A stretch of DNA of 64,000 nucleotides from NCBI RefSeq assembly GCF_002105285.1, contig NZ_MUHR01000001.1, forward strand, positions 62,001 to 126,000, written 5' to 3'. The notes beneath the pieces are model-generated. The model did no database searches, had not been told where the DNA came from, and worked only from the letters and a program-made list of their open reading frames with translations. Position numbers and translations under genes: made by a program. The stretch is from Planktotalea arctica (lineage in GTDB: Bacteria; Pseudomonadota; Alphaproteobacteria; Rhodobacterales; Rhodobacteraceae). Shown in pieces: positions 25,650 to 55,858 of this stretch (position 1 is its first letter; each line of letters starts with the position of its first letter).

Positions 25650-27388
25650 CAGAACAAGAAATATCGCTGTGCCATGGGCAATTCCGTGGCGGGTTCGCAG
25701 GTGAGTAATTCACCATCCGCACGCACCTCATAGGTTTCGGGGTTTACCTCCATATGGGGGGTGGCGGTGTTGTGTATCAGGTTCGATTTCCCGATGTTGC
25801 GGGTATTCCGAACGGCCACGGTTTGCTTTGCTAGACCCAAGGTTTTTCCGATATCATTGGCCTGCGCCGCCGCAGAGACAAAACAAACGGCCGAATGTTC
25901 GACAGATCGCCCGAATGCCCCGAACATGGGCCGTGAATAGACGGGTTGCGGTGTTGGGATTGATGCATTTGGATCGCCCATTTGGGCGCAAACAATCGTT
26001 CCTGCCATCAAAACCATTTCAGGTTTCACACCAAAGAATGCAGGGTTCCACAGCACTAGATCGGCGCGTTTTCCTTCAGTAATACTGCCAATCTCGTGGC
26101 TGATCCCATGGGCAATTGCAGGGTTGATTGTGTATTTCGCGATGTAGCGCCGCACACGAAAATTGTCATTCTCGCCGGTTTCTTCGGCCAATCGTCCGCG
26201 CTGTTTCTTCATCTTGTCTGCCGTCTGCCAAGTGCGGATCAACACCTCGCCTACACGGCCCATGGCCTGACTGTCTGATGCAATAATCGAAAATGCGCCC
26301 ATGTCATGCAGGATATCCTCAGCGGCAATCGTCTCTCGGCGGATACGGCTTTCGGCAAAGGCCACGTCTTCGGGGATGGATTTGTCGAGGTGGTGACACA
26401 CCATCAACATATCCAGATGTTCCTCAAGCGTGTTGACCGTGTAAGGCCGCGTTGGGTTGGTGGAGGACGGCAAGACGTGCTCTTCGCCGCAAATCTTGAT
26501 AATATCGGGGGCATGGCCACCGCCTGCACCTTCAGTGTGAAACGCATGGATGGTGCGCCCCTTCATGGCTGCGACGGTGGTTTCTACAAAGCCGGATTCA
26601 TTCAAGGTATCCGTGTGGATCATCACCTGAACATCCATGTCATCGGCAACGGACAAGCAGCAATCAATGGCTGCGGGCGTGGTGCCCCAATCCTCATGCA
26701 GCTTCAATGCACAGGCCCCGCCATTCACCATTTCCACCAGCGCGTCTGGCTGGCTCGCATTGCCTTTGCCCGCAAACGCAAGGTTCATTGGAAAGGCATC
26801 CGCCGCTTGCAACATGCGCCCGATGTGCCACGGACCGGGTGTGCAAGTGGTTGCGAGCGTGCCGTGGGCCGGGCCCGTACCGCCCCCAAGCATCGTGGTC
26901 AGACCAGAGTGGAGTGCGTCCTCGATTTGCTGCGGGCAAATGAAATGGATATGACTGTCAAAACCACCGGCCGTCAGGATGCGTCCCTCACCCGCAATTA
27001 CTTCGGTGCCGGGCCCGACGATAATATCGACGCCAGGTTGGGTATCAGGGTTTCCAGCCTTGCCAATTTTGTGAATACGCCCGCTGCGCAGACCAACATC
27101 GGCCTTATAAACCCCGCTATGATCCACAATAAGCGCGTTGGTGATAACGGTATCCACTGCACCTTGCGCACGCGTTGCCTGCGATTGCCCCATCCCGTCG
27201 CGGATGACCTTGCCACCACCAAATTTCACTTCTTCGCCGTACGTTCGACTGTTTCCGCCATTGGCGCGCTCGGCCGTCAGGTCCCGCTCGACCTCGATGA
27301 TCAAATCTGTGTCTGCAAGACGCAGCTTGTCGCCCACAGTCGGGCCAAACATGGCTGCGTAATCCGCGCGTGAAATCGAACTGGCCAT
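25649..27388 (-). CDS. ureC: Urease subunit alpha UreC
   Basis: The 579-residue catalytic subunit hydrolysing urea to ammonia and carbamate at a dinuclear nickel centre. All ligands are visible: His146/His148 (DSHIHF), carbamylated Lys229 ([10 protein letters not shown]), His258 ([10 protein letters not shown]), His284 ([15 protein letters not shown]) and Asp372 ([14 protein letters not shown]). The mobile flap with [20 protein letters not shown] is intact. Slightly longer than the usual ~570 residues. It follows ureB by one base. Confidence 0.97.
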
Positions 27389-53490: not shown

Positions 53491-53523
53491 CAAAAAGGCC
53501 CGAGTGGGAGGAACTCGGGCCTT
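53491..53523 (-). terminator. Terminator after the Hsp20 gene
   Basis: AAGGCCCGAGT (53495-53505) pairs with ACTCGGGCCTT (53513-53523), 11 bp with a 7-base loop. On the minus strand the stem is followed by TTTT, so it mainly ends hsp20 transcription; on the plus strand the following bases are not T-rich, although it may slow transcription from the P450 gene. Confidence 0.8.
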
Positions 53524-53546
53524 CGTCGCGCTGGGGTGGTTAGGTG

Positions 53547-54014
53547 TTAGTTAACGGCTTTCGCCTCGACCACATCCTTATCAACTGAGCCTGCGCGCGC
53601 GATTTCGATCTGGCGTGGTTTCAGTGCTTCGGGCATCTCGCGGCTCAGATCAATGTGCAGCATGCCGTCCTCGTGGCTTGCGCCTGTGACGCGCACGTGA
53701 TCCGCAAGGTGGAAGCGTCGCTCGAACGCGCGTGTCGCGATGCCGCGGTGTAGATAGGTCCGCTCTGCCGCTTCCTCGCCCTTGCGCGCAGAAACGAATA
53801 GCGCACCGTCCTTTACTTCGACGGACAGATCGGCGTCAGAGAAACCGGCGACGGCGATCGAGATGCGATAGTCGTCATCAGAGGTCTTTTCGATGTTATA
53901 CGGTGGGTATGTATTGGCGCTGACATCGTTGGACATAACGCGGTCCATCATGTCTGCAATCTGGTCGAAGCCAATTGTCGCGCGGTGCATTGGCGCGAAA
54001 TCAAAAGTACGCAT
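53547..54014 (-). CDS. Small heat shock protein Hsp20 (IbpA family)
   Basis: A 155-residue alpha-crystallin-domain holdase chaperone that prevents aggregation of unfolded proteins. The N-terminus IGFDQIADMMDRVMS fits IbpA/HspH; the domain covers about residues 38-130 (YPPYNIEKTSDDDYRISIAV, FERRFHLADHV, GMLHIDLSREMPEALKPRQI, with the I-x-I-like end ALKPRQIEI). AGGA sits 6 bases before the ATG. A sigma-32-like promoter and ROSE-like leader lie upstream, so both transcription and translation are likely heat-controlled. Confidence 0.93.
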   Translation of the reverse strand: MRTFDFAPMHRATIGFDQIADMMDRVMSNDVSANTYPPYNIEKTSDDDYRISIAVAGFSDADLSVEVKDGALFVSARKGEEAAERTYLHRGIATRAFERRFHLADHVRVTGASHEDGMLHIDLSREMPEALKPRQIEIARAGSVDKDVVEAKAVN

Positions 54015-54019
54015 GGGTC

Positions 54020-54101
54020 ATCCTCACTTGAGCAATAACAATATGTTAGCGATCTTCCCGTCCGGGACAGACCGAAGTACGCAGCCCATCATTGGCGCTG
54101 C
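54020..54101 (-). ncRNA. ROSE-like RNA thermometer in the hsp20 leader
   Basis: The 5' leader of about 90 bases can fold into a series of stems. The last is UUGCUC-AAGU-GAGGAU (54035-54020): AGGA of the ribosome site pairs with U-U-(G)-C-U, leaving the unpaired G that is the mark of ROSE thermometers. Upstream are UAACA-UAU-UGUUA (54048-54036), a middle stem with CUUC/GAAG ends (54077-54054) and GCAGC/GCUGC (54101-54081). At low temperature the ribosome site would be masked. Known ROSE elements precede the same gene class in rhizobia and enterobacteria; identity here is from sequence only. Confidence 0.6.
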
Positions 54102-54111
54102 GGTAGTTTAG

Positions 54112-54140
54112 AGTTGGGGGCCGTGGATAATGGTTTCAAG
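54112..54140 (-). promoter_or_regulatory. Sigma-32 (RpoH) promoter of hsp20
   Basis: On the minus strand CTTGAAA (54140-54134), a 13-base spacer and CCCCCAACT (54120-54112) match the heat-shock promoter pattern CTTGAA/CCCCATnT closely. Start of transcription near 54105 gives the 90-base leader described separately. Confidence 0.7.
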
Positions 54141-54153
54141 GGTCGTGAAACAG

Positions 54154-54975
54154 CTATTTCATGACTTTCAAAAATCGCGCCTGCGACGTGCTGCGCGAAG
54201 ACCGATCATTGACCGAAATACGTTTTGCACCGGTTGATCTCCGCGTAGGACTAGCGCGGATCGTGCGTTTCAGGGCCGCGACCGTATCGGGCAATTCCAT
54301 GCCGAAGGCGGCTTTGTTGCCGCGATAAGTGCCGGTCGCGGAGGTAAGCGAAACAATGGGGTAGCGCCCGTTTTCACGCGCAAAAATGGCAGAGCCGGAG
54401 GAACCATAGGTGACGTCACAGTCCAATACCAGCACGCCCTGCGCGCGCGCAAGGATGTTGCAGGCCTTTTGCCACGACATGTTTTCAGTGCGCCCTTGGC
54501 CGTAGGATACGACACTGACTGCGCCTTGGATTGGTGCGCTTGAATGAAGCGCGAAGGGATCGGCGACGCTGCTTGAAATCGGTTCATCCAGAAGGATAAG
54601 CGCGACATCGGAGGCGACGCGCGCTTGCGAAATCGCGCCTGTCGGCTCGTACCCCGGGTCAACGGCGATACGCATTGCGCGCTGCTCTGCGAGAGCCGTG
54701 CCGCTGGTCAAAGCAGCGCGAAAGGTCAAATTCTTAGCGCCATAAGCCTTGCCAGTGCTGGCGTTGTAAACACAGTGTGCAGCCGTCAGAACCAGATCGG
54801 CAGCAATCAAGGTGGCGCTGCAAAACCCATCGGGATTGTCCAGTCGGCCCACTGCCTCCAGCCCGAGCACTTCATCGCGGCTAACGAGCGGGTTCAGGGA
54901 GCTGGACTCGCTTGCCCAGCCCGGTAGCGCCATAGCAAGTGTAAAAGCTCCGGATATAAGTGTGCGCAAACTCAT
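54154..54975 (-). CDS. Trypsin-like serine protease (S1 family)
   Basis: A 273-residue exported protease. Signal peptide about 1-21 (ISGAFTLAMALPGWASE). Catalytic triad: His in LTAAHC, Asp in SDVALILLDEP, Ser in YGSSGSAIF. A basic C-terminal tail (after about residue 235; RASPTRRSTGAKRIS, RSSRSTSQARFLKV) extends beyond the protease domain. It lies 7 bases after a related protease gene, so the two are a tandem duplicate unit. Substrate unknown. Confidence 0.9.
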   Translation of the reverse strand: MSLRTLISGAFTLAMALPGWASESSSLNPLVSRDEVLGLEAVGRLDNPDGFCSATLIAADLVLTAAHCVYNASTGKAYGAKNLTFRAALTSGTALAEQRAMRIAVDPGYEPTGAISQARVASDVALILLDEPISSSVADPFALHSSAPIQGAVSVVSYGQGRTENMSWQKACNILARAQGVLVLDCDVTYGSSGSAIFARENGRYPIVSLTSATGTYRGNKAAFGMELPDTVAALKRTIRASPTRRSTGAKRISVNDRSSRSTSQARFLKVMK

Positions 54976-54982
54976 TGATTTC

Positions 54983-55801
54983 CTATGGTTTCACGAATTT
55001 CGCACCTGAAATGCCGCGCCCTTCTTGGCTTGCAGCGGCGCGGCTTTCTTGCGTGCCAACTACACTGAAGCGCCCACGCCCTGCCGCAAGCTCAGCGCGC
55101 AAACGCGCAAGCGGGCTCTCTAGCGCAGTGCCGAGCGAGACGGGAATCCCCTTCACTTCGGCCTTAGCAGAGACAACGGAAACGATTTTGGCAGTGTCGC
55201 CCTCGATGCTGAAAATAGGTGCGCCGGACGAGCCGAAATTCACCTCGCACGACATCACCAACACGCCTTTTTGACGCGCCATGACGTGACACAGCTCCTG
55301 CAAGGACGGTGCTTCGGAGCGATCAAGCGCATAGGATACAACGCCGATCTGGTCGCCCTTCTTTGGACGCTCGGCTGTTTCAAAAGGAATGACCTTGGTG
55401 TTGCGAATAGGTCTGTCCAACTCGATCAAGGCCAGATCATTGCGCACGCGGTCGGTCGTCGCTGTGCCGTCATAGACGTAATCGGGATGCGCCACGGCGC
55501 GGCGCACATGGCGATAGGCAGAGGCGCGCCCATCGCGCCAGCCTGCGCGAAATTCCATGGTATCGGTATCGACGCGTGCGCCTGTGTCACGATCATAAAG
55601 GCAATGAGCTGCAGTCAAAACAAGATCGGGCGCAATAAGCGCGCCGGTGCAAAAGCCTTTGCCGGCAACGTCGAGACGGCCAACCGCCTCCCAGCCGCGC
55701 GAATCGTCGCCGGTGTTGAGGCGTTTCAGGCTGCTGGACTGCGCACTGGCGCTATTTGAAAAGGCAAAAGCCCATAAGATCAGAACTACGATCCGCGTCA
55801 T
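54983..55801 (-). CDS. Trypsin-like serine protease (S1 family), tandem paralogue
   Basis: 272 residues from ATG at 55801, which has GGAG five bases upstream; an in-frame ATG seven codons earlier overlaps that site. Signal peptide about 1-20 (VVLILWAFAFSNSASA). Triad: His in LTAAHCLYD, Asp in RNDLALIELDRP, Ser in NFGSSGAPIF. It shares SSSLKRLN/SSSLNPLV and GWEAVGRLD/GLEAVGRLD starts with the next protease, showing duplication. The C-terminus (RAAASQEGRGISGAKFVKP) ends in residues similar to its neighbour's FLKVMK. Confidence 0.9.
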   Translation of the reverse strand: MTRIVVLILWAFAFSNSASAQSSSLKRLNTGDDSRGWEAVGRLDVAGKGFCTGALIAPDLVLTAAHCLYDRDTGARVDTDTMEFRAGWRDGRASAYRHVRRAVAHPDYVYDGTATTDRVRNDLALIELDRPIRNTKVIPFETAERPKKGDQIGVVSYALDRSEAPSLQELCHVMARQKGVLVMSCEVNFGSSGAPIFSIEGDTAKIVSVVSAKAEVKGIPVSLGTALESPLARLRAELAAGRGRFSVVGTQESRAAASQEGRGISGAKFVKP

Positions 55802-55858
55802 GCCGTCTCCAATGCGTTTCAAATAGGATAGAAGCCGGATGCGGCGACAATAAGGCGT

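Follow-up and report, generated by a model that had tools for sequence, protein, structure and literature searches.

The hsp20 gene of Planktotalea arctica in the window (the whole stretch of 64,000 nucleotides analyzed here) very probably carries, as judged from its sequence and that of its relatives, a ROSE-type RNA thermometer of the alpha- and gammaproteobacterial small heat-shock protein (sHsp) type, located behind a promoter for the heat-shock sigma factor. Such dual control, by an RpoH promoter and a ROSE leader, had been proposed in the initial annotation of this region, and is supported by a conserved promoter, a conserved motif opposite the ribosome site, covarying stems, and a match between a covariance model of the leader (R1) and the Escherichia coli ibpA leader, although the annotation's own Rfam check failed.

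Promoter and leader of hsp20

The hsp20 gene (53547–54014, minus strand) encodes an IbpA-like small heat-shock protein of 155 amino acids (Pfam PF00011, 64.8 bits). Among the best 80 of 565 named relatives by protein similarity, the closest Hsp20 proteins are those of Planktotalea frisia (91% identity) and Rhodobacteraceae bacterium HTCC2083 (88% identity). Two tandem genes for trypsin-like proteases (54154–54975 and 54983–55822, minus strand) are directly upstream of hsp20 on the same strand, and a pattern scan identified an intrinsic-terminator-like hairpin 3′ of hsp20 (53494–53524, minus strand; one found, vs. a mean of 0.7 in shuffled sequence).

The promoter consists of a −35 element, CTTGAAA (54134–54140, minus strand), and, 13 bases past it, a −10 element, CCCCCAACT (54112–54120, minus strand); the sequence is thus as initially claimed (CTTGAAA-N13-CCCCCAACT), and it is conserved in relatives. 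Compared with the E. coli sigma-32 promoter consensus, given as CTTGAA-N(13-18)-CNCCATAT in the portion of the source available (PMC3669281), CTTGAA-N15-CCCCAACT agrees at six of six bases of the −35 element and at five of the seven specified bases of the −10 element. The pattern alone is unspecific (26 matches in the P. arctica genome, vs. seven for the reversed pattern), and weight was therefore put on conservation. All 80 leaders compared have TTGA 118–138 bases 5′ of the start codon; they comprise the window and the best 80 of 565 relatives minus one (L013) that has too little upstream sequence. Furthermore, 75 of the 81 matches to TTGA-N15..18-CC[CAT] within 300 bases of the start fall in the 120–139 bin. 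The −10 region of the relatives is a C-rich block with a conserved A and T; in a short-pattern search, CCC[AT] or CC[AT]A was absent at the −10 place in eight of the 80 leaders. Based on these data, hsp20 would be transcribed by RpoH from 54140–54112, with the transcription start expected near 54104–54107 (about 54106).

The leader of roughly 91 bases is predicted to fold into three hairpins (all minus strand): H1, with a GCC...GGG core (54080–54102); H2, CUGUCCC...GGGAAG (54050–54074); and the ROSE-type H3 (54017–54039). In H3, UUGCU (54035–54031) pairs with the ribosome site (Shine–Dalgarno, SD) AGGA (54024–54021), leaving G54033 bulged, and the four-base loop AAGU (54029–54026) is closed by C54030–G54025. 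The pairing of UUGCU with AGGA, the four-base loop, and the unpaired G that had been described initially were all recovered by sequence inspection and folding, whereas only two stems (H1 and H2), rather than the three that had been reported, precede the SD hairpin.

Computed opening of AGGA with temperature (ViennaRNA) is gradual: the unpaired fraction in the window leader is 0.15 at 20°C and 0.33 at 42°C, vs. 0.08 and 0.14 by the same method for the known thermometer of E. coli ibpA. As even the E. coli control shows no melting by this method, we do not take the result as evidence either way. A small computed opening would suit a conserved leader that stabilizes the mRNA or simply occludes the SD and has no useful response to temperature, RpoH alone providing the heat control; however, the failure of the E. 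coli element to melt in the same computation, the presence of the ROSE motif in every leader compared (see below), and the relation to E. coli ibpA make this very improbable. The share of relatives (the best 80 of 565) with AGGA predicted as hidden, meaning ≤0.1 unpaired at 30°C, was 0.475, vs. 0.1375 among 240 upstream-shuffled controls; in a quarter of the same 80 relatives, AGGA was predicted to be about 0.4 unpaired at every temperature from 20 to 42°C.

Conservation of the leader and its relation to known ROSE elements

The motif U(U/C)GCU, followed by AGGA before the start codon, was found in all 81 leaders examined (the window and the best 80 of 565 named relatives by protein similarity). 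For covariation analysis, 71 of these 81 leaders were aligned (alignment A1), ten having been dropped by eye as close to others. Using the structure with an extended H3, 92.0% of alignment cells are paired (vs. 83.8% in shuffles), and the covariation score of the whole structure is 0.306, vs. 0.158 for shuffled and at most 0.114 for slid alignments. Most of the covariation comes from H1, in which all four outer pairs have changes on both sides, and from H2. The score of H3 (0.155) is barely above those of shuffled (0.113) and best slid (0.123) alignments. Its core pairs are almost invariant, which is expected given that the ribosome site forms one of the strands; one of the six pairs has both-side changes, a number also reached by shuffles. 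In 11 of the 71 leaders, the C-G pair beside the loop is replaced by U-A. The initial expectation of a UUGCU/AGGA stem conserved with compensatory changes is therefore borne out for conservation, whereas the compensation is thin, consisting of this C-G to U-A change and a pair count that does not exceed that of shuffles.

The fold energy of the window leader is modest (z −1.94; nine of 200 shuffles equally good), as might be seen if the stems were a chance structure in an intergenic stretch. Covariation, and the R1 matches across the family described below, speak so clearly against a chance structure that we regard it as already refuted, its probability being close to nil. That the leader structure is more than chance is strongly indicated by the comparison of sequences, the matter being decided by conservation rather than by fold energy.

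A second hsp20 gene in the P. arctica genome (leader at L002:1312–1383, contig 45) has an RpoH-like promoter (−10 element CCCATAT) and a shorter ROSE-type leader that consists of H1 and H3 without H2 (R1, 22.5 bits). A CCATAT block and a GCC...GGG core recur in thirty leaders of this second type (hsp20-2), including that of P. arctica, and in all of these UCGCU is followed by AGGA or AGGG. UCGCU is invariant in the 25 that were aligned (A3), five with an unclear start having been left out. Below the core, 24 of these 25 leaders have a G-C pair and one has A-U, vs. A-U in 60 of the 71 leaders of the first type (hsp20-1), which is a compensated change between paralogues.

The Rfam match that had been named initially as a check on the ROSE assignment failed, in that the ROSE models gave no match at gathering score in the whole window, and none at E-values up to 10 in 53900–54350. 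The same scan of the window returned a strong match (101 bits) to RF02514 (5_ureB_sRNA) at 26917–27206 on the plus strand. RF00435 had no match at an E-value of 10 in the P. arctica genome, and no ROSE model matched at an E-value of 1 in the six second-hsp20 loci scanned. RF02523 (ROSE_3) reached its gathering score in none of 120 family genomes; among its six best weak matches in these genomes, five are just 5′ of hsp20 starts. Twenty loci (19 of relatives and the second hsp20 of P. arctica) yielded sub-threshold matches only (ROSE_3 at best 32.5 of 43 bits; ROSE_2 at best 26.2 of 65 bits), with those to ROSE_2 and ROSE_3 being at the right place in some relatives; 20 class-level loci also had sub-threshold ROSE matches only, the best being to RF00435 (38.5 of 45 bits). 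The leader is not filed under RF00435, RF01832, or RF02523 as modelled. Because the Rfam ROSE models miss the rhodobacterial form where they were tried, this leader probably goes unnoticed when genomes of this large marine group are annotated; the 71-leader alignment and R1 could seed a new RNA family or the extension of an existing one.

The covariance model R1 was built from the 71 Rhodobacteraceae leaders of A1, with E. coli ibpA not among them. R1 nonetheless recognizes the E. coli K-12 ibpA leader (31.7 bits) with all three hairpins aligned; this leader was identified as ROSE_2 in the Rfam scan (100.4 bits). In a search of the P. arctica genome, only the hsp20 leader was above chance (69.1 bits). 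Two more matches in that genome (16.7 and 12.9 bits), the first in apparently coding sequence, were taken as chance. R1 matches 230 of 248 family genomes, the model itself having been built from members of that family; among the 18 genomes that have no R1 match, 12 also lack an hsp20-1 match at ≤1e-40, and six have one. Across the class, R1 matches 90 of 385 genomes at an E-value of 0.01, with five of the 90, P. arctica included, belonging to Rhodobacteraceae. An Hsp20 frame is on the same strand in 93 of these 97 class-wide matches (the leader of P. arctica included): it adjoins the match in 29 of the 30 cases with coordinates, and is present in 64 of 67 short stretches (about 1.1 kb or less), for which positions within the stretch are not given.

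The E. coli ibpA ROSE element (RF01832, ROSE_2) resembles the window leader in having three hairpins in the same order, an IbpA-type gene, and U(U/C)GCU opposite AGGA in the last hairpin; its second hairpin aligns with H2, and the two have CCUGUCC...GGAAGG in common. The difference lies in the low RF01832 scores of the 20 loci given above, which place the rhodobacterial form beyond the Rfam model. The ROSE1 element of Bradyrhizobium, which we take to be Rfam RF00435, and ROSE_3 share with the window leader the motif, the sort of gene that follows, and the arrangement in several hairpins, and the ROSE_3 consensus GAUGCC...GGGUC resembles H1.

In the available text of PMC3669281, which counts E. 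coli ibpA among the best-studied ROSE-like thermometers, the ROSE-like class is described as having two to four hairpins before a small heat-shock gene, with U(U/C)GCU in the 3′-proximal hairpin blocking the SD by imperfect pairing. The window leader has an SD-blocking hairpin within a multi-hairpin 5′ untranslated region (UTR), an sHsp gene, and a detectable relation to a studied member of the class. According to the same text, control by RpoH and a ROSE element together has been demonstrated for ibpA of Pseudomonas putida; the Pseudomonas ibpA thermometers thus share with the window leader a sigma-32 promoter and a ROSE-like leader under dual control, tested there, but are short and have two hairpins, whereas the window leader has three (PMC3669281). 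The short H1 and H3 leader of the second hsp20 of P. arctica can be likened to this two-hairpin form, as far as the latter is described in that text (PMC3669281).

A rhodobacterial case was initially thought to widen the distribution of ROSE elements. This is not supported: in the Roseobacter Nautella sp. R11, ibpA and hspD had already been reported in 2011 to have typical ROSE-like motifs upstream, in one sentence that comes without alignment or test in the text available (PMC3230580). This bacterium belongs to the same clade, and has the same kind of gene and, as in the P. arctica genome, two sHsp genes (PMC3230580). The distribution of the leader is no surprise, and the leader is an expected member of the known ROSE class.

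Proposed thermosensing and possible Hsp20 autorepression

In the mechanism that we propose, heat would raise RpoH activity, and hsp20 would then be transcribed from 54140–54112. The leader would fold into H1, H2, and H3, with H3 hiding the SD at growth temperature; on warming, this imperfect helix would loosen near the bulged G, permitting ribosome entry, by analogy with the known class. H1 and H2 would probably serve as a folding aid or in Hsp20 binding.

The latter function is suggested by E. coli IbpA, which, according to the accessible portion of PMC10474464, represses its own translation via the 5′ UTR in a manner that needs Arg93, whereas IbpB is described there as having no self-repression activity; R93 in alphaproteobacterial IbpAs is also noted in that source (PMC10474464). 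In protein alignments, R93 of E. coli IbpA is matched by an Arg in the window Hsp20, and the equivalent residue is Arg in 81 of 81 hsp20-1 proteins (the window and the best 80 of 565 relatives) and in 30 of 30 hsp20-2 proteins, while the inactive E. coli IbpB has Gln. Among class-level Hsp20 frames, the Arg93 equivalent is present in 83 of 88, the others having Gln (two), Gly (one), or a gap (two). Because this arginine is kept in rhodobacterial Hsp20s, a feedback loop in which Hsp20 acts on its own mRNA through the leader is plausible by analogy.

These data might be taken further, to a leader that is mainly a platform for Hsp20 autorepression, with temperature acting by drawing Hsp20 to aggregates and not by RNA melting. 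Self-repression by E. coli IbpA through its 5′ UTR with the required Arg93 (in the part of PMC10474464 available), the Arg kept in all 81 hsp20-1 and all 30 hsp20-2 proteins, and the conservation of H1 and H2, which are as well kept as H3, would all fit such a role. However, ROSE thermosensing is typified by U(U/C)GCU opposite the SD, and there may be other reasons for the conservation of the arginine; we consider it unlikely that autorepression is the main function. Autorepression and RNA melting are mutually compatible, and a ROSE-type thermometer could also be subject to feedback by Hsp20.

ROSE-type leaders before rpoH, clpB, and a lipoprotein-like frame

The four class-wide R1 matches that have no Hsp20 frame precede rpoH (one), clpB (two), and a lipoprotein-like frame (one). 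The rpoH assignment is based on a match to TIGR02392 (327.1 bits; cut-off 323.1) for the frame that follows the R1 match in L175. A leader about 75 bases before rpoH was found in three of three genomes examined of one small-genome alphaproteobacterial order (L318, L319, and L320; R1 30.9, 21.5, and 18.1 bits), these genomes being drafts that are 83–87% complete. All three leaders have UAUUGCU...AGGAU, their H1 stems differ in sequence yet pair (by eye), and a housekeeping-like promoter, TTGACT...TAAAAT or TATACT, is discernible 5′ of them by eye. No Rfam ROSE model matched these three loci at an E-value of 1.

The two clpB matches are in L202 and L210, the latter being a copy of the former at 89% identity; the frame in L202 is a 301-amino acid start with 408 bits to TIGR03346, for which the cut-off of 1232 applies to the whole protein. 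In clpB leaders of the order of L202, an alphaproteobacterial order other than that of the rpoH leaders (L238–L255, 95 bases before clpB), three hairpins are conserved, and the last stem, GCAAUGUCU...GGAGUUGC, is predicted to hide the SD. The alignment of clpB leaders from this order (A2) holds 16 of 20 clpB matches, with L242, L254, L256, and L257 omitted (two of these, L254 and L256, differ in appearance), a selection that favors the structure. The 16 leaders have H1, H2, and the last stem, which is GCAA(U/C)GUC...GGAGUUGC in 15 of them and has outer four pairs that are identical in all 16. The ROSE_3 gathering score was passed by one of five clpB loci scanned in this order (L240, 43.9 of 43 bits).

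The clpB genes of Rhodobacteraceae, including that of P. arctica (leader at L321:64–149, contig 9), have a different covarying leader, in which a long-range helix of RAGRYYC with GGRYGCUU encloses an inner hairpin. In the alignment of 24 of 31 such leaders (A5; the P. arctica leader with 23 among L262–L287, from 59 genomes with a match), 92.2% of cells are paired and the covariation score is 0.439, vs. 0.226 in shuffles; these counts favor the structure, since ill-fitting leaders were left out (L258–L261, L264, and L270 had no clear fit, and L281 was cut off). R1 had no match in the P. arctica clpB leader at an E-value of 10, and Rfam had none at an E-value of 1 in L278 and L321, the two Rhodobacteraceae clpB leaders scanned. 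According to the structural model, the GCUU strand of this leader has two possible pairing partners, the far RAG and the SD.

We tentatively suggest, as a possibility that falls somewhat short of being probable, that an alphaproteobacterial ROSE-type leader is common to several heat-shock genes, being found not only on the two hsp20 copies but also on clpB (at least one order) and on rpoH (the small-genome order); in the latter, a ROSE thermometer on rpoH, behind a housekeeping-like promoter, would switch on the heat-shock response. Speaking against this wider reading are the missing R1 match in the P. arctica clpB leader, the negative Rfam scans of the three rpoH and six second-hsp20 loci, the single clpB locus in five that passed a ROSE cut-off, and the draft state of the rpoH genomes. 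No description of ROSE-type leaders before rpoH or clpB was found in the literature searched, and we make no firm claim that they are unpublished. The clpB and rpoH leaders are more novel than the hsp20 leader, and are the part of this work that specialists would want tested. The remaining R1 match without an Hsp20 frame (L125:1501–1773) precedes a lipoprotein-like frame of 59 amino acids, which matched no Pfam or NCBIfam family, and is a full ROSE-type leader with an R1 score of 46.7 bits.
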